A DNA stretch of 64,000 bases from a virus (IMGVR_UViG_3300032236_000601:1-64000), one strand, 5' to 3'; positions 105 to 63,381 are shown, counted from the first letter of the stretch. Numbers and translations are program-made. The notes: generated by a model not told the origin, from the letters alone.

Positions 105-298
105 ACTATATTCCTAACATTGTCTCTCATTTTATTAATAAGAGATGAGTCAATAACAATTTTTGTTGCATTGTAGAATGAATCAATTATATCGTTATCT
201 GGAGCAGATAGCAAGTATTCTCCACCAAACATATATCCACTACCTACATGATAAAAAGTATCATAATATGCTATATACACAAATTCTTCATTATTCAC
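101..298 (-). CDS. Hypothetical protein, 65 aa, leaderless GTG start
   Basis: A short soluble-looking protein with an aromatic N-terminal half (YIAYYDTFYHVGSGYMFGG) and a basic C-terminus. I do not recognise the family. The GTG start at 298 is supported by a -10 box (TGATAGAAT) that ends exactly six bases upstream, so translation would start at the first base of the transcript. The stop overlaps the next start as ATGA. Confidence 0.6.
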   Translation of the reverse strand: MNNEEFVYIAYYDTFYHVGSGYMFGGEYLLSAPDNDIIDSFYNATKIVIDSSLINKMRDNVRNIV

Positions 299-304
299 AT
301 AATA

Positions 305-310
305 ATTCTA
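305..310 (-). promoter_or_regulatory. Extended -10 promoter for the 65-aa gene (leaderless)
   Basis: On the minus strand this is TG-A-TAGAAT followed by six bases and then GTG. The predicted +1 coincides with base 298, the start codon. No clear -35 is seen. It belongs to the leaderless promoter set described in the findings. Confidence 0.6.
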
Positions 311-325
311 TCACGAATAATTGAA

Positions 326-488: not shown

Positions 489-884
489 CTAATTTTTTCC
501 ATTTATTGTCCAAAAGTTTTTATTAAGGGTTGTTGGAGATAGGGATTCTGGGGAAACAACCTTTTTAACCCCCGCCTTTTTATATGCAGCACGCATAGTT
601 GGATTATTATCAATTGCTAAAACAACATCGTCCATTGAACTTGCAATACGTTGTTTATATGACGCTGTTTGAGAACTTGATCCAGGATTCATTGTTAATG
701 AATCATACTTAATTCCAGCAGACTTTAACTCACTAATAGTTTTTGCCCTATCAGATTGTGGTCTACCAGTAACCAAGGCAATCTTATATGATTGATGTGA
801 ATTAATCCAGTCTACCGTTTTCTTTATTGGTTTAGCCCCACTAGACAGTAAGGTTCCGTCAATATCACAAATTATGGTAGACAT
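489..884 (-). CDS. HAD-superfamily phosphatase (polynucleotide 3'-phosphatase-like)
   Basis: A 131-residue HAD hydrolase. Motif I is CDIDGTLL near the N-terminus, with D7 the expected nucleophile and D9 the acid/base. Motif II is the VTGRP segment, and the C-terminal IDNNPTMRAAYKKAGV segment resembles the acidic motif IV loop. The small size and lack of a large cap resemble the phosphatase domain of T4 polynucleotide kinase, so a nucleic-acid or nucleotide 3'-phosphatase role is plausible but not proven. A leaderless promoter lies immediately upstream. A second HAD gene (2145-2606) lies in the same region. Confidence 0.75.
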   Translation of the reverse strand: MSTIICDIDGTLLSSGAKPIKKTVDWINSHQSYKIALVTGRPQSDRAKTISELKSAGIKYDSLTMNPGSSSQTASYKQRIASSMDDVVLAIDNNPTMRAAYKKAGVKKVVSPESLSPTTLNKNFWTINGKN

Positions 885-890
885 AATTAA

Positions 891-896
891 ATTATA
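891..896 (-). promoter_or_regulatory. -10 promoter for the HAD gene (leaderless)
   Basis: On the minus strand AGGATATAAT is followed by six bases and ATG at 884. The same AGGATATAAT string precedes the tRNA-Asn gene. No -35 is obvious. Confidence 0.55.
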
Positions 897-1380: not shown

Positions 1381-1639
1381 TGCTGTCTCCAAAGTTTCTT
1401 TCATCGTCGGAAAGTATATCAGTAATTACAGAGTCAGGAAAGTTATGTCCAGCATCCATATGTTCTCCAAGATGATCAATCATATCCATAGTATTGTATG
1501 CATGAAATGATCCATTCATCTTTACTTTTGCATTTTCTGCAATAGGCATAAGTGGGCAGGAAGTACAAATAAGATATCCAGCCGTGTCCATATAAATATA
1601 AAGATCACTACCCTCTTGCCCCCATCTGCTATAAGCCAT
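1373..1639 (-). CDS. Conserved phage hypothetical protein, 88 aa
   Basis: The N-terminus MAYSRWGQEGSDLYIYMD followed by a C-T-S-C pair resembles a small protein family found in actinophages, where the Cys pair and the start of the sequence are usually kept. No catalytic motif is seen. It is tightly coupled to both neighbours (1-nt overlap upstream, 8-nt downstream), so it belongs to the 2152-899 operon. Confidence 0.6.
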   Translation of the reverse strand: MAYSRWGQEGSDLYIYMDTAGYLICTSCPLMPIAENAKVKMNGSFHAYNTMDMIDHLGEHMDAGHNFPDSVITDILSDDERNFGDSNA

Positions 1640-1951: not shown

Positions 1952-2152
1952 TTATCTCCAAGGTCTAGGATCTACTTTTTGTATTTTTTCTTGTTTAATT
2001 TCTGTGTGACATTTGCATCCACACTTACCATGATTAAATTGATACCTACATCCATCATGATCTTTTGTCATGCAGAAGCCACTTGGTTGAACCAATTGTC
2101 TTTCTGGTGTGTATGGATATGAAAGAACATCTTCCTTCTTTTTTCTAGCCAT
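1952..2152 (-). CDS. Cysteine/histidine-rich small protein, 66 aa
   Basis: After a basic N-terminus (MARKKKE) comes a compact cluster C-x5-H-x2-C...H-x2-C-x-C-x-C-H (residues about 27-50). It is probably a zinc-binding module. The same spacing occurs at the C-terminus of the glycosyltransferase at 12814-13881. The gene overlaps the upstream HAD gene by 8 nt. Confidence 0.6.
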   Translation of the reverse strand: MARKKKEDVLSYPYTPERQLVQPSGFCMTKDHDGCRYQFNHGKCGCKCHTEIKQEKIQKVDPRPWR

Positions 2153-2606
2153 GTTGCCAACCTTCTACGACAGTGCAAGGAATATTTTCTTCTTTCCACA
2201 GTTTAATGATTTCTGGATTATCATCCCATGCATGAATAGGAATCCATTCCTTTTTAATCTGATTAAGAATATCTTTCTTTACTTCATAATCTTTTCTATT
2301 GTCATCATTGCCTCGCATAAATAACGCATTACTAGGAACATTGTTAAGTGCAAGCCAGATAGCAGTTTGATTCCTCCACTTTGCTTTACGAGCAGTCACA
2401 ACAATTACATCAATATTGAGTAAGTGGCATACTTGTGCAGCATTAACAACGTGGGAATTGGCTGGAACATTGACAGATTCTTCATGAAATTTATCAAAAT
2501 GCTTAATTACCCTACGTTTGGTTTCATCAAATTTGGTAAGATGATGACGAATAGATGATACATTTGCTAGAGTTCCGTCCATGTCAAAGATGACTGCTTC
2601 CCTCAT
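2145..2606 (-). CDS. HAD-superfamily phosphatase, 153 aa (Pnkp phosphatase-like)
   Basis: Motif I is FDMDGTLANV (D8 nucleophile, D10). Motif II is the VVTARKAKWRNQT segment, where T/S-A-R is typical of the T4 Pnkp phosphatase family. The motif IV region is HAWDDNPEIIKLW. About 150 residues is the size of a stand-alone polynucleotide 3'-phosphatase domain. Removal of 3'-phosphates during DNA or RNA repair is inferred from family likeness. A consensus promoter with a 32-nt leader lies upstream, and the gene heads the cluster running to 899. Confidence 0.75.
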   Translation of the reverse strand: MREAVIFDMDGTLANVSSIRHHLTKFDETKRRVIKHFDKFHEESVNVPANSHVVNAAQVCHLLNIDVIVVTARKAKWRNQTAIWLALNNVPSNALFMRGNDDNRKDYEVKKDILNQIKKEWIPIHAWDDNPEIIKLWKEENIPCTVVEGWQHG

Positions 2607-5433: not shown

Positions 5434-5460
5434 AACACACTGCTATAATGCAAGTGTGTT
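5434..5460. promoter_or_regulatory. Plus-strand leaderless promoter inside a terminator-like hairpin
   Basis: On the plus strand TGCTATAAT (5441-5449) is followed by six bases and GTG at 5456. The -10 lies in the loop of a 7-bp inverted repeat (5434-5440 with 5454-5460). Read on the minus strand, the hairpin is followed by seven T residues, so it looks like an intrinsic terminator for antisense transcription arriving from the right. One element may therefore start the plus-strand gene and stop minus-strand read-through. Confidence 0.65.
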
Positions 5461-5791
5461 TAATAGTATTATGAAAAAAGTAAGTTTATTGTTTCAAGAA
5501 GGCCCAACTTGGTCTGTTAGAAGAACCTTTGTTTTTCTCGCTGGAACATTTTGTGTTGCAATTATCTTATATGTGGTTGTTAGATGGAATGATATTTCAT
5601 TTGCATCCCCGCTAGTAATTGGAGCATTTGGAGTGTTAGGGACAGTGGTAACCGCATATGTTGGCGGTACAGTTTATAAAGAACATGGAGAAAAAAAAGA
5701 AGAAACTTCACAAGCATTAGATGTTCTAAATGCTAATGAAGTCAGGCAAGCAAGACAAATGAAACACGATGAAGACTTTCCAACATTATAG
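5456..5791 (+). CDS. Two-span membrane protein, 111 aa; only plus-strand gene
   Basis: Two hydrophobic segments (about 25-42 and 52-71) are followed by a charged cytoplasmic-type tail (YKEHGEKKEE onwards). The topology and size resemble small phage membrane proteins, including some holin-like ones, but no family motif is seen. I keep the GTG start at 5456 because it coincides with the predicted +1 of the promoter. ATG at 5471 would lose only five residues but has no ribosome site. The gene is convergent with the HNH/tRNA-Thr unit and divergent from the secreted-protein genes. Confidence 0.65.
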   Translation: MFNSIMKKVSLLFQEGPTWSVRRTFVFLAGTFCVAIILYVVVRWNDISFASPLVIGAFGVLGTVVTAYVGGTVYKEHGEKKEETSQALDVLNANEVRQARQMKHDEDFPTL

Positions 5792-5824: not shown

Positions 5825-5896
5825 AGCCACTAGAAGGTACTGCCCCCTCTTATCCTGTTTACAAGACAGGCGCATTACTGTTTATGCTATAGCGGC
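5825..5896 (-). tRNA. tRNA-Thr (TGT)-like, non-canonical D and T loops
   Basis: The minus strand folds into a cloverleaf: acceptor GCCGCTA/TAGTGGC (one G-T pair), D-stem GCAT/ATGC, anticodon stem CCTGT/ACAGG with loop CTTGTAA (anticodon TGT), and a 5-bp T-stem GAGGG/CCTTC with one G-T pair. The T-loop is GGCAGTA rather than TTCRANY, and the D-loop AAACAGTA lacks the G18-G19 pair. Both partners of the usual elbow contact are thus missing. It may be a divergent functional tRNA or a decaying one. Its first 15 bases are the last codons and stop of the HNH gene. Confidence 0.55.
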
Positions 5897-6283
5897 GTTG
5901 GTGCGCTTATGAGTTCTTTCTCTATGACAATTAGAACATACAACTTCACACTTTTCAATTTCTTTTAATATATCCTCTATTGAATGCCAATATACCATTT
6001 GACCAATATTTTCAACCTTGAATCCATTAACATGATCAAAATCTAAAACATAGTATGGATACATTATTTTACAGTCAACGCACCCAGAGTCTTCTTTTAT
6101 TTTGGCAATCATCAATCTTATCTCTGTTCTTCTTTTTTGAGATCTTTCCCCTGTTTTTCTCTTTTGATCATCTCCTAAATGATATGAAATTGTTCCTTTG
6201 GAGCAACCTAAATATTCTTGTATTTCTCTATAAGTTTTTCCCTCTGACCTTAGACGAATAATTTCTTCTCTATATTTAGTCAT
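5882..6283 (-). CDS. HNH endonuclease with N-terminal helix-turn-helix, 133 aa
   Basis: Residues 1-35 contain a resolvase-like HTH (KTYREIQEYLGCSKGTISYH). The C-terminal half has an HNH/zinc core: C-V-D-C, VLDFDHVNG, then EVVCSNCHRERTH. This is the layout of small phage HNH nucleases that bind a site and nick DNA, often as homing enzymes. Its promoter is a perfect 25-bp palindrome, so autoregulation through the HTH is plausible. Translation is predicted to be leaderless from ATG 6283. The gene ends inside the tRNA-Thr-like gene. Confidence 0.8.
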   Translation of the reverse strand: MTKYREEIIRLRSEGKTYREIQEYLGCSKGTISYHLGDDQKRKTGERSQKRRTEIRLMIAKIKEDSGCVDCKIMYPYYVLDFDHVNGFKVENIGQMVYWHSIEDILKEIEKCEVVCSNCHRERTHKRTNAAIA

Positions 6284-6284
6284 G

Positions 6285-6309
6285 GTTCAATTATATCATA
6301 TAATTGAAC
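6285..6309. promoter_or_regulatory. Perfect 25-bp palindrome carrying a -10 box on both strands
   Basis: Twelve bases (GTTCAATTATAT), a single central C, then the exact reverse complement. On the minus strand TGATATAAT ends six bases before ATG 6283 of the HNH gene. By symmetry the plus strand carries TATAAT at 6299-6304, pointing away. It suits a dimeric repressor operator overlapping the promoter. Confidence 0.75.
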
Positions 6310-7439: not shown

Positions 7440-8270
7440 CTATATATTTGTTATCGCTATTAGCGACGGATTATTGTAGTGATAAGCATACCAAAAGCAA
7501 CGATCTATGTCAAGCATATTGCATATTGTATTGGTTTCACTCATTAATTTAATTTGATCTGGAATGGCATATGGGTTTCCCTTACCGCCTAAATTATAAT
7601 TTGTTTCTGTAATCCACAATGGCTTTTTAGGAGCCTTTGCTAAAGCGTTAATTGCAATCTTACAATCTCTTGTAAATCCTTCAACCCCCTCGCTTTGCTG
7701 TGGATATATATGCATTGCATAAACGTCACAGGGATATCCTGCGCTCTTTAATGAAGAAAGTAGTGCTGCACCCTTAGTATCAAAGCCAGCCTGTCTGCGT
7801 GGCTGCAATGGATAGGAAACCACCTTTGCAGCAGGGTCTATTCTTTTAATAATTTGATATGCTGTCTTTGTTATTGTACCCATCGTTGCATAATCTCCAG
7901 AGTAAAATCTTTTATCTGCTGGCTCATTCCATACTTGATAATACTGAATTCTACCTTTATATCTAGTAACTACAGCCTGAACATATGTGCTCCACATACC
8001 CATATTTGCTGGTGGCCTATTGCTACCCGCTGGCATCCATGCTGCCTGCTTTCCATCTGGACCGCCAAGTGCTGCCCATGCTGGTGGATGACCAATAACT
8101 AAACAAATGCTTCTTTTTCCTGCTGCTGCTACAAATGAATCTAGTGTAGACCAATCAAAAGTTCCACGTTCTTTTTCTATTCTTGCCCACTCTGTTTGAC
8201 AATCCCATAACCTAATCGGTCCAGTAGGCGGCATATCCTGTATTACATTGCTGCCGAATATCGTTGGCAT
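7440..8270 (-). CDS. Glycoside hydrolase-like (TIM barrel) protein, 276 aa
   Basis: This looks like a clan GH-A glycosidase. YYQVWNEPADKRF (E116 in N-E-P) is the acid/base motif and PLWITETNYNLGG (E222) the nucleophile motif, with WDCQTEW and the LVIGHPPAW strand before them, as in GH39- or GH5-like enzymes. No signal peptide is seen. It could cleave host cell-wall or capsule glycans as part of lysis or as a virion-associated depolymerase; its place near the endolysin and a membrane protein favours an envelope target. The substrate is unknown. Confidence 0.72.
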   Translation of the reverse strand: MPTIFGSNVIQDMPPTGPIRLWDCQTEWARIEKERGTFDWSTLDSFVAAAGKRSICLVIGHPPAWAALGGPDGKQAAWMPAGSNRPPANMGMWSTYVQAVVTRYKGRIQYYQVWNEPADKRFYSGDYATMGTITKTAYQIIKRIDPAAKVVSYPLQPRRQAGFDTKGAALLSSLKSAGYPCDVYAMHIYPQQSEGVEGFTRDCKIAINALAKAPKKPLWITETNYNLGGKGNPYAIPDQIKLMSETNTICNMLDIDRCFWYAYHYNNPSLIAITNI

Positions 8271-8277
8271 GACGAAT

Positions 8278-8283
8278 ATTATA
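8278..8283 (-). promoter_or_regulatory. -10 promoter for the glycosidase-like gene
   Basis: On the minus strand TGTATAAT lies seven bases before ATG 8270, giving a one-base leader. The TAA within TATAAT is also the stop codon of the DUF1003 gene. Confidence 0.5.
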
Positions 8284-8764
8284 CATCAAAAGTTAGATCG
8301 TTTATTGTTTTTTCAAACTCTTTTTCATGCATTTCTATTTCATCATTCTTTTTTTTAATATCAAGTTCTAATGAGTGTCTTTCTATTTCATCATTCTTTT
8401 CTTTGATCTCAAATTCAAGATGATCATGCAGAACTTTTTGCATTCTATGAATTTCTTTAATTAAAGGAAAGAACTCTTGAGTCATTATAAGATCTTCTCT
8501 ACCAACCTTGTAAGTATTTTCTGCTAATTCTGTTGCAAGAGCATCTGCACGTTTTGCAGCAATCAAAAGAATTGCTCCTTGCAGTGCAGCAAGACAAGAT
8601 AACAAAAGATTTAAAAGAATGAACGGAAAGGGATCAATTCCCCCTGGTCCTTTAAAAATTATCCATATAATTAAAAACCCTACAGCACTAAATACAAAGG
8701 GCCAAGAACCCATTCCGTTGCGAATTATATCTGCAAATCTGTTTCCTAAACTCATTCTCCCCAT
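8279..8764 (-). CDS. DUF1003 membrane protein with coiled-coil tail, 161 aa
   Basis: The N-terminal half matches DUF1003: RFADIIRNGMGSW, a first membrane helix, GGIDPFPFILLNLLLSCLAA leading into a second helix, then AAKRAD. The C-terminal half is a long charged coiled coil with a partial internal repeat (EIKEKNDEIERHSLELDIKK, then KNDEIEMHEKE). The family is widespread but functionally uncharacterised. In this setting a holin or other lysis-linked role is possible. The leaderless ATG at 8764 follows TGTTATAAT. Confidence 0.75.
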   Translation of the reverse strand: MGRMSLGNRFADIIRNGMGSWPFVFSAVGFLIIWIIFKGPGGIDPFPFILLNLLLSCLAALQGAILLIAAKRADALATELAENTYKVGREDLIMTQEFFPLIKEIHRMQKVLHDHLEFEIKEKNDEIERHSLELDIKKKNDEIEMHEKEFEKTINDLTFDV

Positions 8765-8770
8765 ATTTTT

Positions 8771-8776
8771 ATTATA
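8771..8776 (-). promoter_or_regulatory. Extended -10 promoter for the DUF1003 gene (leaderless)
   Basis: TG-T-TATAAT, six bases, then ATG at 8764 on the minus strand. The predicted +1 is the A of the start codon. Confidence 0.65.
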
Positions 8777-8806
8777 ACAAATTATTTACTAAATCATGAG
8801 GGAATA

Positions 8807-10395: not shown

Positions 10396-10662
10396 TTAGT
10401 TCTTTTGTAAAGGATTGAAACTGCCGCCCCAGACATTCTTCTTAACGTTCCAATCATCTGGAAGCATTGAGAGTGCGCCTAGTGCTCTTGCACGACGAAT
10501 GATGTGCCTTCTTGCAGCATCATAATCAGATGCACGGCCAACGGACTGAATAGCATTTGCTAAATCTTTACGATTTGAAATGGGAAACGATCCGTCTGGC
10601 ATCGCTGTACCAGCAGCAGCCATTCTTTTTCTATCTTTTGAGTTATAATCTTTCTTTTCCAT
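10396..10662 (-). CDS. DUF6582-like basic protein, 88 aa
   Basis: The block DRKRMAAAGTAMPDGSFPIS then NRKDLANAIQSVGRA and RHIIRRARALGALSMLPDDW is a small module seen in many phages, either alone or at the ends of capsid-protease proteins. It is basic and helical. Its role is unknown; an association with DNA or the head is sometimes proposed. A leaderless promoter (TGGTAGAAT) precedes ATG 10662. Confidence 0.7.
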   Translation of the reverse strand: MEKKDYNSKDRKRMAAAGTAMPDGSFPISNRKDLANAIQSVGRASDYDAARRHIIRRARALGALSMLPDDWNVKKNVWGGSFNPLQKN

Positions 10663-10668
10663 AATTTA

Positions 10669-10674
10669 ATTCTA
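10669..10674 (-). promoter_or_regulatory. Extended -10 promoter (leaderless) for the DUF6582-like gene
   Basis: TG-G-TAGAAT, six bases, ATG at 10662 on the minus strand. Confidence 0.6.
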
Positions 10675-10684
10675 CCACCTAATA

Positions 10685-11079: not shown

Positions 11080-11517
11080 CTACTTTATAGATACACGTAG
11101 TTGCCATGCCCACTTCTTGTACAGATCATCACGTTCTGCCAGGAAGTTAGCGATACCTTGCTCATTTGCACTTTGTGCAATACCAAAAGCCTTTAGGTTG
11201 TCTACAATTGCAGTCTCAATGGAAGATAGCAAATCGGTAGCCATGCTAATTGGATCAGATCCTACCTCAGATTCCTTAACTGTAGCAAGTTCTAGGAATC
11301 TGCTCATCTTAAATGGAGCATATGCTTGCAATGCACGAATATACTCTGCTGTAGGATCTACAGACTCATATACATCAGAATAAATATCTTCAAAAAGAAT
11401 ATGGAATTCCTTAAAGTTAATTCCTTCAACATTCCAGTGATAGCCGTGGGCCTTGAAGTATACTGCATAAGAGTTAGCAAGTACAACCTTCAGGGCATCT
11501 ACAAGATCTTCATTCAT
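11080..11517 (-). CDS. dps: Dps-like ferritin family protein, 145 aa
   Basis: A four-helix Dps/ferritin-like protein. Ferroxidase-type residues appear in the expected order: HWNVEGINFKEFH (H27, H39) and SVDPTAEYI (D54, E58), matching the H-W-x-(v/r)-G-x-x-F-x-x-x-H and D-x-x-A-E motifs of Dps. It would form a shell that binds and oxidises iron, protecting phage or host DNA from oxidative damage. The true start is ATG 11517, eight codons inside the longest frame, because TGCTATAAT ends six bases upstream (leaderless). Confidence 0.85.
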   Translation of the reverse strand: MNEDLVDALKVVLANSYAVYFKAHGYHWNVEGINFKEFHILFEDIYSDVYESVDPTAEYIRALQAYAPFKMSRFLELATVKESEVGSDPISMATDLLSSIETAIVDNLKAFGIAQSANEQGIANFLAERDDLYKKWAWQLRVSIK

Positions 11518-11523
11518 AATATT

Positions 11524-11529
11524 ATTATA
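11524..11529 (-). promoter_or_regulatory. Extended -10 promoter for dps (leaderless)
   Basis: TG-C-TATAAT, six bases, ATG at 11517 on the minus strand. It overlaps the last codons of the upstream glycosyltransferase gene, so dps can be expressed apart from that operon. Confidence 0.65.
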
Positions 11530-12148
11530 GCACCTCTTCATTCATGTATTCAGAAAGATATTTTTCTTTATTTTTAAGTATGTTTTCGTTTTCCTCTTCA
11601 CGAGGATGCCATAAATGATAGCAGTTTCCTGGTATTCTTTTCAACTCTACGCCAGCCTTTTTACCTACAATTATTAATGATATATCCTCAAAACCCCAGT
11701 CGATATATCCCTCATCGTATGCTCCTATAGAAAAGAAAAAGTCTTTTGGCATTGCGATTGCTCCACCAGTAGCCCAATCTATTGACCAGTTACTTATTTT
11801 TGGAGAAGGCTTTTGTTCATTTATAAATATCTGTCTACTATAATTCGATGGAATAGAATGATATTCAGAAAATGGATGCACCATATATCCTTGACGAGCA
11901 AGTTCTATTGCAGCATCAATTTGTTCATGTGGAACAACTGTGTCTGCATCAAGAAAGAGAACTACATCATCTGTACATTGCTTGGCTCCTAAATTTTTTG
12001 ATCCAGATCTAGAAAATGGTTTTGTGCCATCATCTGCAATTATTGGATTATACTTTTGCATATGCTCTAATACATATTCAAATGATCTATCTCTCCACCA
12101 ATCACCTGAACTTCTCCAAGGAATGACGATGTTAGTTTTTTGTTCCAT
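11525..12148 (-). CDS. Glycosyltransferase (GT2/GT7-like), 207 aa
   Basis: The nucleotide-sugar half has TNIVIPWRSSGDWWRDRSFE, IIADDGTKPFSRSGSKN and VLFLDADTVV (D-x-D metal site). The acceptor half has WATGGAIAMPKDFF and EGYIDWGFEDISLI, the W-G-x-E-D motif typical of the galactosyltransferase-type C-terminal domain (Glyco_transf_7C). It is the last of three consecutive glycosyltransferase genes (13881-11525) that overlap each other, so the three probably build one glycan. Confidence 0.82.
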   Translation of the reverse strand: MEQKTNIVIPWRSSGDWWRDRSFEYVLEHMQKYNPIIADDGTKPFSRSGSKNLGAKQCTDDVVLFLDADTVVPHEQIDAAIELARQGYMVHPFSEYHSIPSNYSRQIFINEQKPSPKISNWSIDWATGGAIAMPKDFFFSIGAYDEGYIDWGFEDISLIIVGKKAGVELKRIPGNCYHLWHPREEENENILKNKEKYLSEYMNEEVL

Positions 12149-12821
12149 TACTTTCCTTACCTATATGTTCTACACTAATCCAGTCAGTCTTTCTATCTCC
12201 CCAAATTCCAGAGACTTTTCCCTCTGATCTAATCTTTTTACCAAATTCACTTTCAGACCAATCACTTTCGGGCCAAGTATATTTGGCAACCCATGCAGGG
12301 AATATGCTTGGATTACATGTCCAAAATGCTTTATGAATGACCCAAGGGTAGTATGGTGGAGTCCTACTATAACGCTGATTAAAATAACATCCAACCTTTT
12401 CTAATGCATCTATGACTCCACCACTTACAATCTCATTTTTATACCAGGGTTGTCTCATAAATGACATTTGAGATAATTCTGGAAACTCTTGTAATACTTT
12501 TATTACGTCATCAATAACAAATGGCTTTAATAAAATAAAGTCATCTTCTATATGTAAACAATACATTGATCCAGAATCTAAGACTGTGCTAAATACTTTT
12601 CTCATTGCCTTCACATACCCCGCTCTATTTTCTGCAACAGGAATTATTTTAAATGAGGGAAATGTTGAGGAAAGCCAATCTCTATATTCAGGATCTCCTG
12701 AATCATCAATAATAAATTTATTATCTATCTGACTATCGTATTGCTCTATCCATGTAGGAAGAGACTTTTCTATATATTGCTTTCTTCCATCTGTAAGAAC
12801 TGTCATACATATATTATTCAT
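12132..12821 (-). CDS. Glycosyltransferase-like protein, 229 aa
   Basis: A GT-A type protein: ICMTVLTDGRKQYIEKSL, FIIDDSGDPEYRDW and MYCLHIEDDFIL (the E-D-D region corresponds to a D-x-D site), followed by an aromatic acceptor domain (PPYYPWVIHKAFWTCNPSIF). I start it at ATG 12821, behind AAGGAG and with an 8-nt overlap on the upstream stop, rather than at 12863. It overlaps the next glycosyltransferase by 17 nt. Confidence 0.72.
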   Translation of the reverse strand: MNNICMTVLTDGRKQYIEKSLPTWIEQYDSQIDNKFIIDDSGDPEYRDWLSSTFPSFKIIPVAENRAGYVKAMRKVFSTVLDSGSMYCLHIEDDFILLKPFVIDDVIKVLQEFPELSQMSFMRQPWYKNEIVSGGVIDALEKVGCYFNQRYSRTPPYYPWVIHKAFWTCNPSIFPAWVAKYTWPESDWSESEFGKKIRSEGKVSGIWGDRKTDWISVEHIGKESNGTKN

Positions 12822-13881
12822 TAATCTCCTTATGACAATCACAATCGCAATGATCTTTTGCAAGACATTGTGAATGCATATTGGAAGAACAGTATCCAGA
12901 CATTGCTACCTCAATCATATTAAAATCTTCATCAAAAACTGTGTCTGTTGTAATAAGACCTAGGTTTACCTTATTATCTATCTCTTCATTATAAAACTTA
13001 GAAAAGTTAATCCCAATCATCTCTTGATAGTCAAGATATTTTTGATAGTTTCCAATTCCATATATGCCTACTTCTTTTGTAAGAAGGATATTCTTTTGAA
13101 CCCTCTGAGATTCCATCTCAAGTGTAGTCCAAGATCTTCCTCCTACATTATCTGCCCAAATCTTTGGACGATCTTCTCGTTTATAAAAGTGCCAAGCAAT
13201 CATTTTGTTGGGGGCATACATATGCCAATCTCTTGTATATGCACGAATAGCAAAACAAAGTTCTTCACCCATAAAACATATTCTTTCATCATATGGAATT
13301 TCATCAACAACATCTCCATGAGTAAAGATTAGTGCTCCTAGAACTGTATGCGTCTTGTGTGGATTAGATTTATCCTCAATCTTTTCTCTTTTACCAGCCC
13401 ATACTGCTGCCCAGGTATTAACAACGCTTGTCCAAGATGGCTCATCCCAAAAATCTGGATCGTCCTTTGGGTAATAATCTGTGTTATCGGTATGAACAAT
13501 GTATGGTGCTGGAAAGTGACTTAAGATAACTTTATGAGTTTTTGCATCGTTAGCACACCATTTATACATTTTAATAAGTTCAGTATCCCATCCCTTACAA
13601 AAACGCATATGAGAATCTGTTTGAAAAAAGAAATCCTCACCATCATATAGTTCCATCGCTAGTTTTCTAGCATATCCAGCACCCTTAGCATCTTTATAAT
13701 GCATATTTACTAAACGAATCTGATCTCCTAGCCAACTAAGATCAATAAACTTGTTTCTTTCATCTTGATTTACTATTCCAAAAACAAGATCTTCTGGATG
13801 ATCTGCATTATGTAATAATGATCTAACAGTCTTTTCTAATTCTAGATCACGATATGATGCTATAGATATGAATATGCTCAT
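12814..13881 (-). CDS. GT60/GlcNAc-type glycosyltransferase with C-terminal Cys/His module, 355 aa
   Basis: FISIASYRDLELEKTVRSLL at the N-terminus, GIVNQDE, and FFQTDSHMRFCKGWD (about 85-99, with the D-x-H metal site) match the GlcNAc-transferase family (PF11397 type). That family adds sugars to proteins in eukaryotes and also occurs in bacteria and phages. After residue about 325 comes an extra GYCSSNMHSQCLAKDHCDCD-type cluster with three further Cys/His residues, probably zinc binding and resembling the 66-aa protein at 1952-2152. It is first in the three-gene glycosyltransferase run. Confidence 0.8.
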   Translation of the reverse strand: MSIFISIASYRDLELEKTVRSLLHNADHPEDLVFGIVNQDERNKFIDLSWLGDQIRLVNMHYKDAKGAGYARKLAMELYDGEDFFFQTDSHMRFCKGWDTELIKMYKWCANDAKTHKVILSHFPAPYIVHTDNTDYYPKDDPDFWDEPSWTSVVNTWAAVWAGKREKIEDKSNPHKTHTVLGALIFTHGDVVDEIPYDERICFMGEELCFAIRAYTRDWHMYAPNKMIAWHFYKREDRPKIWADNVGGRSWTTLEMESQRVQKNILLTKEVGIYGIGNYQKYLDYQEMIGINFSKFYNEEIDNKVNLGLITTDTVFDEDFNMIEVAMSGYCSSNMHSQCLAKDHCDCDCHKEINE

Positions 13882-21428: not shown

Positions 21429-21941
21429 TTATCCCTTTGTTAGATTATTTCTATAAAAATAAATTCTGTTTAGCCAATCATTCCATTCATCAAGGCTCAT
21501 ATCGTTTTTTGCATAGTTGCACCTCTTGCAGCATGGCACACTATTTTCTATGGTATATCCATCATTATTATCTATTCTATCTATCCCCACTAAACCATTA
21601 AATCCGCACCAATGGCATGAACGAGATACAATTTCTAAAAACTCAACTCTAGTTAGAGTAAAACTATAACCCTTTTTCCTTGCTCTGTGCCGACAGTTAG
21701 TGAATAATCTATTAGCAACTTTATCCTCTTTAGTTTCATATCTCCAAATTTTACCATCACATCCAGCACACTTTCTACGTAGACCGCTTTGCCTTTTCAC
21801 CCATTTTTCAGTTTTACATATATTACAATACAGAAGAAATCTATAATCAGTTTCTGATTCCCGATTAATTTTTAAAATTTGTCTGCCATCGGAAATAGTG
21901 TCTCCAACATTATACTTTGACTTTCTGCCAACATATTTCAC
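21429..21941 (-). CDS. HNH endonuclease (homing-type), 170 aa
   Basis: The N-terminal part has two zinc knuckles (YCNICKTEKW and KCAGCDGK). The C-terminal HNH core is CHWCGFNGLVGIDRIDNNDG then NSVPCCKRCNYAKND. It sits between replication genes with its own leaderless GTG start, as expected for a mobile free-standing nuclease. If removed, its neighbours would form an unbroken operon. Confidence 0.85.
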   Translation of the reverse strand: MKYVGRKSKYNVGDTISDGRQILKINRESETDYRFLLYCNICKTEKWVKRQSGLRRKCAGCDGKIWRYETKEDKVANRLFTNCRHRARKKGYSFTLTRVEFLEIVSRSCHWCGFNGLVGIDRIDNNDGYTIENSVPCCKRCNYAKNDMSLDEWNDWLNRIYFYRNNLTKG

Positions 21942-21945
21942 ATAT

Positions 21946-22239
21946 CTATTTTACCACATACTTTAAGGTCTGACAAAATTGTTGCAAAGATTCAGCAGCG
22001 GTATAGTATAAATTCTTTTTTGCTCTATCACTTTTGTCTACGTTGGACAACCAAGTCGCTCGCAAACTAAGTTTCATCTGTATTGCCTGCAACCTAACTA
22101 GTTCTGGCACGGCAACCTGAATTGGTATGTCTGGCTTAAACATTACCTTTGCAATAAATTCTAATGCCGTAGTCAGTTCTGGATCGTCCATATATTCTGC
22201 AATCTCGTACAGATCATTTACCTGCTCAAGAGTTGTCAT
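21946..22239 (-). CDS. Helical hypothetical protein, 97 aa
   Basis: Entirely helical by eye (LYEIAEYMDDPELTTALEFI, then LVRLQAIQMKLSLRATWLS). Actinophage proteins of this size with the pattern of a final tyrosine-rich helix occur in replication operons, but without known role. It overlaps the nuclease gene upstream by 14 nt. Confidence 0.6.
   Translation of the reverse strand: MTTLEQVNDLYEIAEYMDDPELTTALEFIAKVMFKPDIPIQVAVPELVRLQAIQMKLSLRATWLSNVDKSDRAKKNLYYTAAESLQQFCQTLKYVVK
21948..21953 (-). promoter_or_regulatory. Extended -10 promoter for the HNH gene (leaderless GTG)
   Basis: TG-G-TAAAAT, six bases, GTG at 21941 on the minus strand, inside the last codons of the upstream gene. Confidence 0.5.
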
Positions 22240-28072: not shown

Positions 28073-29017
28073 TTAATACATTGATAATAGTGGGTCTTGC
28101 ATTTTTTCTGTTAATTTAAAGATATCGTCGTCTGTCATGTCTCCAATATCCTTAAATCTTTGTGGCAGACCAATGACTGTTGCCCGATGTTTCATTCGGT
28201 TTACTATTTTTTCTGTCATTGTCTTTCCTGCATCATCGTTATCTGGAATAACTATAACGTTATTAAATGATTTTGTCAAGAGGTCTAGTTGAACCTTTGA
28301 GATATATACCCCAAGAGTTGCAATTGCTGGAACGCCACATTGATCTAATCGAATAGCATCAAATGACGACTCCACAACATAAACAGAATCAAACCTTTTT
28401 ACACGATGAAGATTAAATAATACCTTTGACTTAGGTAGTCCAGGTGTATGAATGAAATTCTTTCCCTCAACACTGCGCCCAATAAAGCCCACATACATTT
28501 TACCGTCAGGGCTTTGAACTGGAATAGTAACCATGTCACGATTTTCGCTATATCCCAAAGAAAATTTATTTATAGAGTCAGGATTTAGCCTACGACCCTC
28601 AAAATACCTTATGGCTCTTGGACTATTAATTGCTTGACCGTTTAGTCTCTTTATAAGAAGTTCATCAAATGGTGAATAGTCAACTTTTTCCTCAAGCATC
28701 TTATCTAGACTGTCAACTATATTTGACTCTACCTTTGCGGAATCAATGAATCTGCTTGCTTCAAAGTAGGTTTTTTGAGTTAAATGCATTACAAGTTCAA
28801 TTAATGATCGGGACTCATGACAGGAAAAACAAAAGAAAGTCCCCTTATCTTTACTGACTTCACCAGCGGGTGTACGATAATTATTGTGATAAGGACAGAA
28901 AATCAAATAGTCTGAATCTACTTCTGATTCAATGGTGATTCCAGACCCTGATATGACTCTCCTGACCTGCTCTGAGGAGTATATATCGGCCTGTTCTTGT
29001 CTAAACCGTCTATACAT
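28073..29017 (-). CDS. dnaG: DnaG-type primase, 314 aa
   Basis: An N-terminal CHC2-like zinc site is given by FCPYHNN (C41, H44) and FFCFSCHES (C63, C66). A TOPRIM core follows: VYVVESSFDAIRL (E216) and VIVIPDNDDAGK (D259-D262). It is shorter than cellular DnaG and lacks the C-terminal helicase-binding domain, as usual for phage primases. The first ~100 bases overlap the upstream gene, and the zinc domain begins too early for a shorter start. Confidence 0.88.
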   Translation of the reverse strand: MYRRFRQEQADIYSSEQVRRVISGSGITIESEVDSDYLIFCPYHNNYRTPAGEVSKDKGTFFCFSCHESRSLIELVMHLTQKTYFEASRFIDSAKVESNIVDSLDKMLEEKVDYSPFDELLIKRLNGQAINSPRAIRYFEGRRLNPDSINKFSLGYSENRDMVTIPVQSPDGKMYVGFIGRSVEGKNFIHTPGLPKSKVLFNLHRVKRFDSVYVVESSFDAIRLDQCGVPAIATLGVYISKVQLDLLTKSFNNVIVIPDNDDAGKTMTEKIVNRMKHRATVIGLPQRFKDIGDMTDDDIFKLTEKMQDPLLSMY

Positions 29018-29253
29018 GCGGCTGCCTTCTTTCCTAAATACGATCCATATACGCTTAATGTAAATTCATAATAATTACCTGTAAATGATAGCGACCAGTC
29101 GGGGTCTATGTCAAGACGTTGAACATAACCTTCTGAACGCATAGAATCTCTTAGTAGTCTGATATATTCTTCTTTCATGCGTGGAATAAAAATATCATCA
29201 GTAATTTGACCTTCTAGATGAAATCTTTTTATTCTTTTATGCATGAATATCAT
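28918..29253 (-). CDS. Hypothetical protein overlapping primase, 111 aa
   Basis: Begins MIFMHKRIKRFHLEG and contains LDIDPDWSLSFTGNYYEFTL with a beta-rich centre. It has its own leaderless promoter and shares its last 100 bases with the primase in another frame. It may be a replication accessory factor. Family not recognised. Confidence 0.65.
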   Translation of the reverse strand: MIFMHKRIKRFHLEGQITDDIFIPRMKEEYIRLLRDSMRSEGYVQRLDIDPDWSLSFTGNYYEFTLSVYGSYLGKKAAACIDGLDKNRPIYTPQSRSGESYQGLESPLNQK

Positions 29254-29259
29254 GCAGTA

Positions 29260-29265
29260 ATTATA
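29260..29265 (-). promoter_or_regulatory. Extended -10 promoter (leaderless) ahead of the primase unit
   Basis: TG-A-TATAAT, six bases, ATG at 29253 on the minus strand. Confidence 0.65.
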
Positions 29266-29282
29266 TCAGTTAGTTTTAATTA

Positions 29283-29684: not shown

Positions 29685-29971
29685 TAAACATCTTCACTTT
29701 CCAGGCCTAGTTGAATAACTGCTGCTTGAGAAGATGATGCAGATGATACTGCATAGATAACCTCACCAAAGCGTAGTTCTACTGACCATGCTGCGCCTGG
29801 AAGAATTCTGTATCCATAATTTGACGTAGATACACCATCTCCACCAATATAGATAGTGGCGGTATCAGAAATATTCTGGATAGTAATGTCTCTTCCTGAG
29901 TGATCTCCTGTTACAGAAACTGCTGTTTGAGTTGAATTATTTAAAGTTACTAGGTTATGTGTGACTGCCAT
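29684..29971 (-). CDS. Probable virion decoration-type protein, 95 aa
   Basis: Beta-rich: NSTQTAVSVTGDHSGRDITI then the TIYIGGDGVSTSNYGYRILP region and a final VIQLGLESEDV. This type of sequence is found in small structural proteins of phages. It starts with a leaderless ATG behind TGGTATAAT. Confidence 0.55.
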   Translation of the reverse strand: MAVTHNLVTLNNSTQTAVSVTGDHSGRDITIQNISDTATIYIGGDGVSTSNYGYRILPGAAWSVELRFGEVIYAVSSASSSQAAVIQLGLESEDV

Positions 29972-29977
29972 GATTTT

Positions 29978-29983: not shown

Positions 29984-29988
29984 CCACC

Positions 29989-57500: not shown

Positions 57501-59177
57501 TTAATTTTTAGAACCTTGTCCCTTTGGATTTCTTCCAGTAACAGCACCTGGTCCATCGGATTGATTATTTTTTCTTTCTTGATCTCTTGACTTATTGCCT
57601 TGCATATTACCCTTGGCATCTGCTGCTTGACGAGGACTTAGTTGAACTGGTTCGTCTCCACCATCTCTTTGTGGATAACCAATTGCCTCTCTAACCTCAT
57701 TTGGAACCAAAACTTGATCTTTAACATAAGTGTCATAAATTTGTGATTGAGCAATTTCATCAATAAGGCTGACCTGATTAAAGGATAACTTTACAACGTC
57801 AGTTTTTTCTTTAACAATTTTATTAATTGCTTTTTCTATTTGCTCTTGCAATGGAGCGCAAACTTGATCACGGAATGTACGATCTTGAGACATTGCTGCT
57901 GATAGAGCACTTGAATCTACTCCGCCTAATTTAGAAAGTGGAACCTGATGGGCCATGAGAATATCATCACGATTCTGCTTCCTATACTGTGAAAATGATG
58001 CCTCTTGTACACCGTTTTCTACAGGATGCATTTCAAACTCAATCTTATTACCTTCAGAATCTCCTGGAAGTGGTATATAAAGAGTTCTGTGCGACTGCCC
58101 CTTAAGTCCTGTCTGGAAGAACCTAAATAGCCTATCCTCTGCATCTGCTGTTAACTTTGCACCCTTAACAGTAATGATATATCTTGGAACAGCCTTATTC
58201 TCAAAGTATTCAATGTTATATCTGGCAGCCATTAAGTCACCCTGAAGTGAGGTCATTGCTGCAACAATATCTGGAATACCGTAGAAAGTATTTAGTGGAG
58301 AATATTCTCTTAGATGAATTACCTCGTTTGGACGAGGATCTTCTGTTACTGGATTTGGATTATTAGCACCAAAATTACGGAAGTATGTAATTGTTCCAGC
58401 AATAATCTGAATATATCCATCATGCAAACGACGTACACGCATTGTTGTTGAAGGAATGTGACCAATATATCCAATTTCGCCTGTTACTGTGCGACCAACT
58501 TCAATATATCCATTTCCAGTTGCCTGCATATCTGTAACAACCTTTTCTAATGTCTTTGTTAGGCTATCCTCATCATTAAGATCTTCTAGCCAATCAGACA
58601 TTTGAATCTTTAGTTGTTCAATTCTTCTCTTTGCCTTTTCTTTATTTGACTCATTATCCATTGATTCTAACTTCATCATGGTTTCAGTTGTCATATCAAA
58701 CTTGTATCCAATACCGACGGTATTTGAAACCTTGGCATCAATTGCTGCGTGATTAGCAAAAGAAGTATCGTAGTATGCTGAAAGTTCATATAGATTATAT
58801 GGTGGAGTAATAAGATCAAAAATTCCATAACCATTACGATATACCTGGCCTGGATTAATCTTCTTTGATCCTACAGTTCTATCAACATTTTGACCAACAG
58901 ATCTAGCATCACTCAGGTATCTACGAGAAATCTGACCATCTGGATCTCTTGGAACTTGATTTACTAAGAGATTGTTTGCTCCTGTACTAGAGAGTGCCAT
59001 TCCTGGTGGTGGTGGTGCTGTTTTTTCTGCACGCTGTTGTCTGCGTTTAAAATTCTTGTTTAATCCTCTAAGATCAGAAAGTTCTTCCCAACTCTTATTG
59101 AATGGGTCTGCATTACCAAATTCATTTTCAATAATTTGATCTGCCATCTTTGCATCAATTAAAAAACTTTCACTCAT
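57501..59177 (-). CDS. Portal protein, 558 aa
   Basis: Contains YNLYELSAYYDTSFANHAAI (wing region), DMQATGNGYIEVGR, LREYSPLNTFYGIPDIVAAM and the VPLSKLGGVDSSALSAAMSQ block; these are HK97-type portal hallmarks (PF04860 type). The C-terminal 40 residues are a polar Asn/Gly/Lys tail. It forms the dodecameric entry ring and docks the terminase. One-base overlap with the gene upstream. Confidence 0.9.
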   Translation of the reverse strand: MSESFLIDAKMADQIIENEFGNADPFNKSWEELSDLRGLNKNFKRRQQRAEKTAPPPPGMALSSTGANNLLVNQVPRDPDGQISRRYLSDARSVGQNVDRTVGSKKINPGQVYRNGYGIFDLITPPYNLYELSAYYDTSFANHAAIDAKVSNTVGIGYKFDMTTETMMKLESMDNESNKEKAKRRIEQLKIQMSDWLEDLNDEDSLTKTLEKVVTDMQATGNGYIEVGRTVTGEIGYIGHIPSTTMRVRRLHDGYIQIIAGTITYFRNFGANNPNPVTEDPRPNEVIHLREYSPLNTFYGIPDIVAAMTSLQGDLMAARYNIEYFENKAVPRYIITVKGAKLTADAEDRLFRFFQTGLKGQSHRTLYIPLPGDSEGNKIEFEMHPVENGVQEASFSQYRKQNRDDILMAHQVPLSKLGGVDSSALSAAMSQDRTFRDQVCAPLQEQIEKAINKIVKEKTDVVKLSFNQVSLIDEIAQSQIYDTYVKDQVLVPNEVREAIGYPQRDGGDEPVQLSPRQAADAKGNMQGNKSRDQERKNNQSDGPGAVTGRNPKGQGSKN

Positions 59178-59569
59178 TATTCTGCTCCCCCATAAACTTG
59201 AGAGGTCTTTTTGGCTGCTGCGACGGCACCAAGATCATTCATAGTTGGAATAAGACCCTGTTCCATTCGCTGTACTTGTTCATCATATTCTTCATCTGTT
59301 GCACGACCAATACCAGCATAGAACCAGGGTGATCCCTCTGGTTGACCATATGCTGCGGCTGCCTCACGAATCTTAGCCATCTGACCAATATCTCCCTCAA
59401 TTGAAGGAATGTTTAACATTCTTCCTTCATCATCCTTAAATAAATGTCCATCAGGAAGTCTCCAAAAATAAAGTCCCCAGGCATAGCCAAACATTGCCTT
59501 TTGTCCATCTGCTTTATCTATAACTGATATCTTTGTTTTACCAAGAGTTGGTCTTTTTCTATTACTCAT
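59177..59569 (-). CDS. Small head-associated conserved protein, 130 aa
   Basis: KTKISVIDKADGQKAMFGYA then WGLYFWRLPDGHLFKDDEGR is a family found just before the portal gene in actinophages. It may be a packaging or head-assembly helper; no motif gives an activity. I start at ATG 59569, one base after the predicted +1; the longer start (59578) would lie before +1. Confidence 0.6.
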   Translation of the reverse strand: MSNRKRPTLGKTKISVIDKADGQKAMFGYAWGLYFWRLPDGHLFKDDEGRMLNIPSIEGDIGQMAKIREAAAAYGQPEGSPWFYAGIGRATDEEYDEQVQRMEQGLIPTMNDLGAVAAAKKTSQVYGGAE

Positions 59570-59576
59570 AACCACC

Positions 59577-59582
59577 ATTGTA
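59577..59582 (-). promoter_or_regulatory. Extended -10 promoter for the head gene unit
   Basis: TG-G-TACAAT on the minus strand, +1 at 59570, ATG 59569 (one-base leader). Confidence 0.45.
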
Positions 59583-59587
59583 CCAGA

Positions 59588-62500
59588 TTATGCAGGTTTT
59601 GCATATATATCTAACCATGTTGCGCTTGTAATAAATTCAGTATCAAGCGCTTTAACCGTTATTCCATAATTATCATCAACTGTTATGCTATTTGTTCCAG
59701 TATATGCTTGATATATTTCTTTTGGAGTTATTGTATTGGAAATCTTTTGATTTATTACATAAACTGTTTGCCATGTTTGTTTTGCTGCATTCCAATAACT
59801 CCAGGTGTATGGGCTACTATTATTATTACCATCAACATATTCAATAAAGTTCCATGTACGTGTATTGGTATCAACCTTAAATCCAAGTCCAGACGATTGA
59901 TAATAAGAAATATTATTAAAAGTGAATCCTCCAAATAAACTTATTCCTCCTGAAGAAAATCCTCCGAAATCAAGTTCGTTTGGAAATACAACTCCTATGC
60001 AAGTCCATTCATCATTATTTAATGTTGCACTGCTAACAATTCTTCCATTTTGATAAAGATTATTTGATGTAGACTGTAAATATGGATCACCAGTTATATT
60101 TAATATCTGATCAAAAGTAATTGTTGTTGATGTTCCATTATCGTAATCATCAACATAAACATTACCAGATGCTGCTCCACCATCTATTACATATCCATCT
60201 AATTCAATATATGAAGTCATTACTGCTTGATTACTATTTTTAGATATTGAACATAAAAACTTTCCATCCTTATGCGTTATTTCAAAAACTTTTATATTAT
60301 TGGTATCTGGAATAAATGATGGATTGACCATAAACTGCATTGCAGAAACCTTATAGTCTTTAGATAAACTTTCATTTATTGGAATAAATAGTTGATTTTC
60401 ATACTGATGATTAAAATCATTTACCGTTTCATTTATTAAACGAATTCCAGACTTTTTTGAATTATACAAATATGGACTAGAAGACTTATAAATTAGTAAT
60501 GGATTTTTATTTTTATATGTTGTATTAAATTCATATGCTGTGGCTATATAAGCATTCTTTCCCCATTTTGTCCCCACATAATTCTTTTGATTATTTGTTC
60601 CTGAAGCAACATCATAATTAAGATTTTTTGCAGAAATTTCAAAACTATTTATTTTTAATGGATTCTTTAATATTGATCTTTGACTTACTTGCATATGAAC
60701 AACCATTGCATAGTCTTTGAATGGTTTAGATTTTGGTGGATATATAATAACGTTATCTGAAATGGCAAAAGCAGTATTGTATGCTTGATTTGGTAAAAGA
60801 GTAGTATTTATACTATCTGCATCAATAACTCTATTTACTGGTAAAGATTTTTGATTATTAAATGATGATAGTGGTGTATTTGCTCCTGTAGATAGTCTTT
60901 GAAATGTTACATATGATTGAACTGATGATTGAGAAACAAATATCAAAGATGATTCGTTTTTATTTTTTAAATTAGTGTATGTACTATATGTAGAGTTTAC
61001 ATTTAAATATGTACTACCTTGAAAACTATTTTGCAATCCTAAATAATTCCAGGCAGATGAATATTCAACGCTTTCATATCCTATATTTAGTTGAAGCATA
61101 TCTAAGTCATAAACATTATTTCCATTTTCATCCTTTACATATGTTGCAAAATAAGTTAGTGGAAAATATTCTTCCCATTCACCGTATATAGATATGTCTA
61201 AGAATAAGTTTCCATACTCATATTCTGGAAGCAGTGTATAACTTGTAATATGATTTAAAAGATTTTTTTGTGCATCTAATGTATTTAGCACGATACCATT
61301 AGAGTCAAAATTTGATGATATGTTAGAGTATTCTGATTTATTAGAAAATCCGATAGAATATATCTTGCCTTCAAATGTATTTGTTCCATTTCCACCTATA
61401 TATACCTGAACAGATGCTGGTGAAGAAAAGAATTTTGAAACATCATATCCATATGCAGTTGAAATTAAATCAATATTTACTCCAACTGCAAATGGTGTAT
61501 TTAGAGATATTGTTAAATTATTATTTGTAACATTAACGTTATTTAAATAATACGTTATGTTAGTTCCGTTTACTCTTATATCAAAATATTGATTGCTACT
61601 TGTGTTATAAAAACTAATAAGAGTTCTATCAGTATTAATAGAAGACTCTATCTCAAATATTCCATATATTGCTGAAACCCTATCATTAAGAATATTTAAA
61701 TTTGAAAACTTTAGATAACAATTTTCTTGATACTGAATTCCATTTGTGTTCCAAGATGTTACACCTGCTGTTGTTGTTGTGTTTGGCCTAAATGTAATAA
61801 AGTTTGGTCCAGGTGTGGTTGAATACACTATATTATTTATATTAAGATTATCTGCATACCATTGCTTTAAGTCTCTACCGCCAATATTTATTGTAGGAAG
61901 TTTATAGTCTGGAACAGATAAATAATCTCTTGTTGCATTAAGATTATTAAAATATCCAGAATCCCAGCGGTATACGTCTGGATAAATTACGCTTGCATCA
62001 TATTGAGATGTTGGAAATTCAATTGTGGTTGAAGTTCCTGTATATGAATTATCAAAAGACTGTACGCTTGGTGCTCCTTGACCATAAACAAATCTACGCT
62101 TTGCTACATTCTCTGGAACAACATATGGATAAATAGAAATACAATCAACCTCAAAGATACTTGTTGATGAATAAGAGTATATACCCCACCAATCTCTAAG
62201 TTGCGAGAGGGTTACAGTATTTTTTGAAAAGGGCATGGATATTACTTGCTCTCCATTAATCATGAGTGTGGCAATATCATTTTTAACTGATATGCTTAAA
62301 AGCATTGGCCTATACCACTGTGAAACAAAATGAGATGCTATTTCATTATCTATTACTAAAGTGATAAATCCTTCTTTTACATAAACACCATCTCTTGTAT
62401 CAAGGGGACCAATTATTTTTTGAGAAACACTTGTAGATGGATTTATCTTAATCCACATCTCTAATGTATAGTTTTTACTTCTACCATTTTCATGCAACAT

Positions 62501-63340
62501 TCCTTTTCCTGGAAAAACAAGAGATGGAACTCCGTACGAATCAGAAGATATAATCTTAGTTGAACGATCTGTTCCATAAATAATAGGAAGAGCATCATTT
62601 TTAGCAAGAAGTTTATTATCTTTTACTATGTAATATGCACTATCACTTAGTATTCCATATGCATTTACTCCAAGATATGATAAGTTTAATTCTGATGGCA
62701 ATGATGTTGCTATTGTTCCTGGGTCATCATAACAAGTTGTTTCTGATCCCTGACCGACTGATAGACCATTCATACACATTGTAACTGATGCAGTATCTGA
62801 TGATGGAATACTAGTAAAAGAGATTATGATAAATATTGATATGCTAGTTCCTGTTTTCCAGTCTTTTGGTAATGTATATGTATTATTAAAATTAATCCAT
62901 GATGTAGATGATGGAGCAGGAATAGCATTAGACTTAATTTGTACTTGAGTTCCTGAAGAATTTTGATAATTATATCCAACTTGATATGAAGAAACATATG
63001 TTGGATTTTGATAAAGAAAAAAGTTTACACAAAAATTAGATATAGAAAGATTGATATTTGTTGAAGTAAAAAGTGCTGGACTAGTTAAAGTTACTTGTGT
63101 TCCTGTTGCAACAAATGATGAATAGATTCCTCCTCCAGAAAATGGAGATTGCGTTGGTGTTGGATTAACACTAGGTATTGAAGGCTCTATCGCTGTAAAG
63201 TTACTTCCAGTCCAATTAGAAAATTTTCTAGCACTATCATCTATTAAAGATAAATAATGCACATCTTCATCAAGGGTCCACATGGAAATTGGATGCTCTG
63301 CATATACCCTAGTTGCATATTGGTTTGCAGCGGAAGTCAT
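59588..63340 (-). CDS. Large virion protein with LamG-like domains, 1250 aa
   Basis: Beta-rich throughout, with an N-terminal YAEHPISMWTLDEDVHYLSL and a ConA/LamG-like domain (YTLEMWIKINPSTSVSQKII ... VIDNEIASHFVSQWY ... ATLMINGEQVI). Later segments repeat jelly-roll-like strands rich in Asn/Ser/Tyr. It is probably an appendage or adhesion protein (head or tail fibre) that binds host glycans. Its position before the portal is unusual for a tail fibre. I start at ATG 63340: TGCTATAAT ends six bases upstream (leaderless), whereas the start at 63370 lies upstream of this -10. Confidence 0.7.
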   Translation of the reverse strand: MTSAANQYATRVYAEHPISMWTLDEDVHYLSLIDDSARKFSNWTGSNFTAIEPSIPSVNPTPTQSPFSGGGIYSSFVATGTQVTLTSPALFTSTNINLSISNFCVNFFLYQNPTYVSSYQVGYNYQNSSGTQVQIKSNAIPAPSSTSWINFNNTYTLPKDWKTGTSISIFIIISFTSIPSSDTASVTMCMNGLSVGQGSETTCYDDPGTIATSLPSELNLSYLGVNAYGILSDSAYYIVKDNKLLAKNDALPIIYGTDRSTKIISSDSYGVPSLVFPGKGMLHENGRSKNYTLEMWIKINPSTSVSQKIIGPLDTRDGVYVKEGFITLVIDNEIASHFVSQWYRPMLLSISVKNDIATLMINGEQVISMPFSKNTVTLSQLRDWWGIYSYSSTSIFEVDCISIYPYVVPENVAKRRFVYGQGAPSVQSFDNSYTGTSTTIEFPTSQYDASVIYPDVYRWDSGYFNNLNATRDYLSVPDYKLPTINIGGRDLKQWYADNLNINNIVYSTTPGPNFITFRPNTTTTAGVTSWNTNGIQYQENCYLKFSNLNILNDRVSAIYGIFEIESSINTDRTLISFYNTSSNQYFDIRVNGTNITYYLNNVNVTNNNLTISLNTPFAVGVNIDLISTAYGYDVSKFFSSPASVQVYIGGNGTNTFEGKIYSIGFSNKSEYSNISSNFDSNGIVLNTLDAQKNLLNHITSYTLLPEYEYGNLFLDISIYGEWEEYFPLTYFATYVKDENGNNVYDLDMLQLNIGYESVEYSSAWNYLGLQNSFQGSTYLNVNSTYSTYTNLKNKNESSLIFVSQSSVQSYVTFQRLSTGANTPLSSFNNQKSLPVNRVIDADSINTTLLPNQAYNTAFAISDNVIIYPPKSKPFKDYAMVVHMQVSQRSILKNPLKINSFEISAKNLNYDVASGTNNQKNYVGTKWGKNAYIATAYEFNTTYKNKNPLLIYKSSSPYLYNSKKSGIRLINETVNDFNHQYENQLFIPINESLSKDYKVSAMQFMVNPSFIPDTNNIKVFEITHKDGKFLCSISKNSNQAVMTSYIELDGYVIDGGAASGNVYVDDYDNGTSTTITFDQILNITGDPYLQSTSNNLYQNGRIVSSATLNNDEWTCIGVVFPNELDFGGFSSGGISLFGGFTFNNISYYQSSGLGFKVDTNTRTWNFIEYVDGNNNSSPYTWSYWNAAKQTWQTVYVINQKISNTITPKEIYQAYTGTNSITVDDNYGITVKALDTEFITSATWLDIYAKPA

Positions 63341-63346
63341 ATACAC

Positions 63347-63381
63347 ATTATAGCAAGAAGGGGTAGCCAAAAGACTACCCC
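63347..63381 (-). promoter_or_regulatory. Terminator hairpin and leaderless promoter at the reductase/virion boundary
   Basis: The hairpin GGGGTAG/CTACCCC (63360-63366 with 63375-63381) follows the reductase stop. On the minus strand it is followed by TTCTTGCTATAATGTGTATATG, that is, TG-C-TATAAT (TATAAT 63352-63347), six bases and ATG 63340. It marks the boundary between an early-type gene and the structural block. Confidence 0.75.

Follow-up and report, generated by a model that had tools for sequence, protein, structure and literature searches.

Roughly 20% of actinobacterial genes are leaderless (PMC3160421), and in mycobacteria an ATG or GTG at the transcription start (+1) is both necessary and sufficient for leaderless translation (PMC4633059). 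The leaderless genes of M. tuberculosis, M. smegmatis and Streptomyces carry a TANNNT hexamer about 12 bp before the start codon, which is itself the +1 position (PMC3160421, PMC3898074, PMC4633059). A comparable arrangement has been experimentally proven for cellular genes of another phylum, Deinococcus-Thermus, where a -10 element stands a few bp ahead of the open reading frame (ORF) at a specific spacing, needs no -35 element and gives rise to leaderless mRNA (PMC12340547). Among phages, the middle and late mRNAs of Thermus phage phiYS40 are reported to be mostly leaderless (PMC3594737). The start geometry is therefore already established in Actinobacteria and Deinococcus-Thermus. Here we describe it in a metagenomic viral record of 67,785 bp, IMGVR_UViG_3300032236_000601, whose bases 1-64000 form the stretch analysed (the window). 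An extended -10 promoter, TGnTAnAAT, ends exactly six bases before the start codon of a series of genes, and these mostly -35-less promoters very probably produce leaderless or near-leaderless mRNAs.

The phage places its hexamer where actinobacterial leaderless genes place theirs, but those genes use the degenerate TAnnnT of high-GC hosts, whereas this genome, with a guanine-plus-cytosine (GC) content of 36.6%, has a near-consensus TATAAT and a frequent TGn. Unlike the Deinococcus-Thermus genes, it is known from sequence alone. Writing Nx for the number of bases between the end of the -10 hexamer and the start codon, we found TAnnnT-N6 at 11 genes in the first 50 kb of phiYS40, compared with 2.2, although that phage has an unrelated host and lacks the strict TGnTAnAAT at N6; the first 50 kb of Thermus phage P23-45 showed no TAnnnT-N6 excess. 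A preliminary description of the window had called consistent leaderless use by one phage notable; such use is strongly supported by the sequence, but phiYS40 provides a precedent (PMC3594737). The closest named kin are Streptomyces phages (about 53% identity in the DnaE polymerase and about 44% in the capsid protein), one of which, BillNye, is placed in Stanwilliamsviridae. Related as they are, BillNye and its kin have a GC content of 53% and a weak N6 signal (in BillNye, TGnTAnnnT at 4 genes vs 0.44). What is new here is the lineage-wide use by phages and a two-form leader; a limited search of the open-access literature found no description of lineage-wide use by actinophage relatives or of the two-form leader.

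Six-base spacing between the -10 hexamer and the start codon

The preliminary description listed 13 gene starts with a -10 box at N6. At all 13 coordinates a TAnnnT hexamer ends six bases before an ATG or GTG, the hexamer being TAnAAT in 12 and TATGCT at 31913. Twelve of the 13 hold as probable leaderless genes; at the remaining one, 31913, no gene starts. The other particulars were reproduced: TGn precedes the hexamer at 11 sites (11 of the 12 valid ones), a -35 element is present only at 31913 (TTGACA-N18), and both strands are used, with 5456 alone on the plus strand and the other listed sites on the minus strand. Four further genes said to lie 1-3 bases from this spacing were also recovered, 8270 and 59569 at N7, 1404 at N8 and 32635 at N9 (Table 1).

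TGnTAnAAT-N6-start occurs at 12 of the 85 called genes, including an additional site at 66172, beyond the window, compared with a mean of 0.34 genes at each other offset (Poisson P ~4e-15). A raw scan without gene calls yielded 12 matches, whereas 300 order-3 Markov sequences averaged 1.1 and none had more than 6. The start codons at N6 in the raw window scan comprised 8 ATG, 3 GTG and 1 TTG. Across both strands of the whole record there are 29 occurrences of TGnTAnAAT, 12 of which lie six bases before an ATG or GTG start. The earlier claim that the identical spacing goes beyond chance is borne out by the offset, Markov, scrambled-motif and AT-rich phage controls, all of which agree; the N6 count exceeds that in Markov sequence, and the peak recurs in related phages. 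The six-base architecture is confirmed in this phage genome.

Conservation of the spacing among relatives

Of 15 related viral records, taken in stretches, 12 show the N6 peak, with 4-14 matches to TGnTAnAAT-N6-[AG]TG compared with 0.8-1.7 per offset; it is absent from the other three, two of which are fragments. When 16 records were pooled and deduplicated at 70% identity, the first ORF start downstream of 628 TGnTAnA[AC]T motifs fell at N6 in 85 cases and at N7 in 27, while six scrambled motifs in the same test gave 0-8 at N6 and 2-6 at N7.

The spacing is also kept gene by gene. Upstream of gene 29253, TATAAT lies at N5-N8 in 33 of 33 homologues (43-82% identity), mostly at N6 or N7. The end of the upstream DnaB gene is 21-46 bp away in some of these homologues and 526-2101 bp away in others, and as the promoter is kept whatever the DnaB distance, it therefore goes with the gene and not with the neighbour. 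For gene 29971, a -10-like hexamer is found at N5-N7 in 12 of 12 homologues (N6 in 10), the 13 homologues of gene 59569 with an aligned N-terminus all have N6 or N7, and conservation at 66172 is comparable. In the window, gene 29971 and its follower (29283-29971, minus strand) stand between the DnaB-like gene and 29253; many relatives have 29253 directly after DnaB.

Evidence for transcription initiation at the start codon

Bacterial transcription preferentially starts at a purine (+1) preceded by a pyrimidine (-1). A pyrimidine directly precedes the start codon at 101 of 112 pooled leaderless sites, compared with 173 of 417 genes led by a Shine-Dalgarno (SD) sequence (P 6e-22), and is therefore read as a mark of a transcription start there. 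An SD-like sequence is present at only 3 of the 112 sites, whose start codons are 103 ATG and 9 GTG in a scan covering these two codons. A hidden -35 element was considered and rejected, as -35-like hexamers show only a weak enrichment, at 17-bp spacing (13 of 112 in this TGn-selected pooled set vs about 5 at other spacings). In total, the predicted leaderless transcription is supported by the exact offset, the fixed-spacing conservation, the -1 pyrimidine, the lack of an SD, the bimodal leader lengths described below and the signal in phiYS40.

Two leader forms

In the pooled set, starts are scarce at N10-N14 (10) compared with N15-N19 (50). Where SD-led promoters have their start at N12-N20, the SD begins 4-6 bases past the -10 hexamer in 31 of 42 cases, which is the position of the predicted +1. 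Predicted leaders are thus bimodal, with lengths of about 0-3 nt or about 9-13 nt, the latter being little beyond an SD and its spacer, and with few between. In the families of genes 33097 and 63340, the one promoter is followed by the ATG in some phages and by a GGAG-type SD and ATG in others, with at least four (33097) and at least two (63340) switches of form by parsimony on quick protein trees in which several forks are weakly supported. It is reasonably probable that a single portable promoter module serves the lineage in two translation forms that can replace each other, either a start at +1 (0-3-nt leader) or an ultra-short, SD-first leader of about 9-13 nt, that a gene changes form when about 9-10 bp are gained or lost between the -10 and the ATG, and that leaders of 4-8 nt are rare. 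The N9 class in relatives often ends in ANT-ATG, in unrelated genes, and its members may possibly have a 3-nt leader with +1 at the A of ANT.

Proposed mechanism and alternative explanations

Most likely, the extended -10 (TGnTATAAT), mostly without a -35, would be read by the primary sigma holoenzyme of the host. Transcription would begin on the first base of the start codon, leaving a leader of 0-3 nt, and ribosomes would initiate on the 5' AUG or GUG without an SD. The promoter and start would form compact modules of about 18 bp that overlap or abut the end of the preceding gene and stay with their own gene when neighbours change.

Several points weigh against this mechanism. The +1 position is predicted from sequence, and the actinobacterial host is assigned by kinship. 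The deduplicated sites include diverged orthologues, so the pooled sites did not all arise independently. Genes 298, 8764, 6283 and 21941 are without usable N-terminal homologues, and the promoter is absent from both distant homologues of 884. In addition, an ATG can fall at +1 by chance, as it does at 31913.

The alternative that survives best, although improbable, is that the promoters are real and the starts wrong, with the true starts lying downstream behind an SD. This is the case at 31913, which was ruled out as a leaderless start: the homologues compared have no ATG at that position, and those nearest the window keep an ATG or GTG behind a GAAAGG-type SD at the position of 31892, a conserved start 21 bases downstream. 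A TTGACA-like element upstream is kept in several homologues of gene 31892, and the region 31892-31949 is a second, -35-containing promoter class in the phage. An SD-like sequence at an in-frame downstream codon is also found for 298 and 1404. However, the other 11 N6 sites in the window have no SD-preceded in-frame start within 24 codons, and in homologues the start codon stays at its set distance from the -10.

It is less probable still that the promoter is real but translation proceeds mainly from longer readthrough transcripts through translational coupling, with leaderless RNA a minor species. Readthrough transcripts themselves are likely because most leaderless genes closely follow a same-strand gene, at a distance of about 60 bp or less. 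Yet even a longer transcript would offer these genes no SD, and selection on the leaderless start is shown by the start offset, the -1 pyrimidine and the shortage of 4-8-nt leaders.

A chance product of AT-richness or codon usage, for which one could cite the frequency of both TATAAT and ATG in such a genome and the modest N6 excess of the loose TAnnnT alone (13 vs 4.2), has a negligible probability, and the controls for offset, motif scrambling and phylogeny refute it, as the peak is absent with scrambled motifs and from 50 kb each of the AT-rich phages T4 (GC 34%), P-SSM2 (36%) and Staphylococcus phage K (29%), the observed count was never reached in Markov sequences, and diverged homologues keep the spacing.

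Source genome and host

Nearly all genes of the phage lie on the minus strand. They encode a replication set (DnaE-type DNA polymerase, RecA, DnaB-like helicase and primase) and a packaging and structural set (terminase, portal, head-maturation protease, capsid protein and a 2497-aa minor-tail, tape-measure-like protein). A related polymerase is encoded on about 140 IMG/VR stretches. An actinobacterial host is likely because the polymerase and capsid protein resemble those of Streptomyces phages, and kinship together with the low GC content would suggest a lake as the source of the virus. A scan of cellular genomes revealed no close cellular relative; the DNA polymerase matched only Pedobacter and Mesonia loci at 32-33% identity, which is not useful for host assignment. 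DUF7455, found in 0 of 14 control genomes, was likewise uninformative on the host. Pfam scans of part of the protein set gave no clear sign of a sigma factor or a WhiB gene.

Features of individual sites

The leaderless sites stand ahead of genes of diverse function, including Dps-like, HNH, helicase-adjacent and large structural-region genes (Table 1). In six related records, starts resembling that of gene 32635 (Zn-ribbon-like, MLxCxxC) stand at N8 or N9; the small Zn-ribbon product of this gene (32441-32635, minus strand) gave a weak match of the TFIIB zinc-binding type (E 1e-5, under the cut-off). The Dps/ferritin-like gene adjoins glycosyltransferase-like genes (11080-13881, minus strand), a neighbourhood that suggests DNA protection and sugar modification functions. 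The phage has two HAD/PNKP-type phosphatase genes, at 489-884 and 2145-2606 (minus strand). Directly upstream of the 63340 promoter, at 63356-63380 (minus strand), is a hairpin, GGGTAG..CTACCC followed by TTCTT, which resembles a terminator set right against the promoter that follows; a similar hairpin is present in the related record G007. An Rfam tRNA match at 5825-5896 (minus strand, 46.7 bits) was not called by ARAGORN, and just downstream of it, at 5793 (minus strand), is an extended -10 with no gene assigned.

Table 1. Promoter and start elements in the window (Nx as defined in the text; positions counted from the first base of the window).
Position	Strand	Element	Gene	Remarks
296-313	-	TGATAGAAT-N6-GTG	101-298, 65 aa, function unassigned	No homologue found
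882-896	-	TATAAT-N6-ATG, without TG	489-884, HAD phosphatase-like	
1402-1421	-	TGATATACT-N8-ATG	1078-1404	Uncertain; SD-like GGAG at internal ATG (codon 8)
5441-5458	+	TGCTATAAT-N6-GTG	5456-5791, 111 aa	TATAAT-N6-ATG/GTG in 3/3 homologues
6281-6298	-	TGATATAAT-N6-ATG	5882-6283, HTH + HNH endonuclease	Homologues align in C-terminal part only
8268-8283	-	TATAAT-N7-ATG, TG directly adjacent	7440-8270, GH10-like	Two homologues, at N6 and N7
8762-8779	-	TGTTATAAT-N6-ATG	8279-8764, DUF1003	No homologue among relatives
10660-10677	-	TGGTAGAAT-N6-ATG	10396-10662	N6 also in related records G001, G003, G005
11515-11532	-	TGCTATAAT-N6-ATG	11080-11517, Dps/ferritin-like	N7 in both homologues
21939-21956	-	TGGTAAAAT-N6-GTG	21429-21941, endonuclease VII/HNH-like	Weak homologues only (N8)
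29251-29268	-	TGATATAAT-N6-ATG	28918-29253, phrog_17515	
29969-29986	-	TGGTATAAT-N6-ATG	29684-29971	Directly after DnaB-like helicase gene
31892-31949	-	TTGACA-N18-TATGCT; leader about 21 nt with AGAAAGGA SD		True start 31892
32633-32653	-	TGATATAAT-N9-ATG	32441-32635, Zn-ribbon	Near-leaderless
33095-33112	-	TGGTATAAT-N6-ATG	32651-33097	Relatives leaderless or SD-led
59567-59585	-	TGGTACAAT-N7-ATG	59177-59569	Adjoins portal gene
63338-63355	-	TGCTATAAT-N6-ATG	59588-63340, 1250 aa	Relatives leaderless or SD-led

Implications for actinophage biology

A module of about 18 bp placed at the end of the preceding gene suits a compact genome. With this architecture, both start codons and transcription starts could be predicted to the base across many uncultured actinophages of the lake type, a large group in which annotation tools that expect an SD may misplace or miss starts. 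The families with both leader forms would provide natural pairs for asking why a phage picks leaderless or SD-led translation, and how the two forms interconvert.

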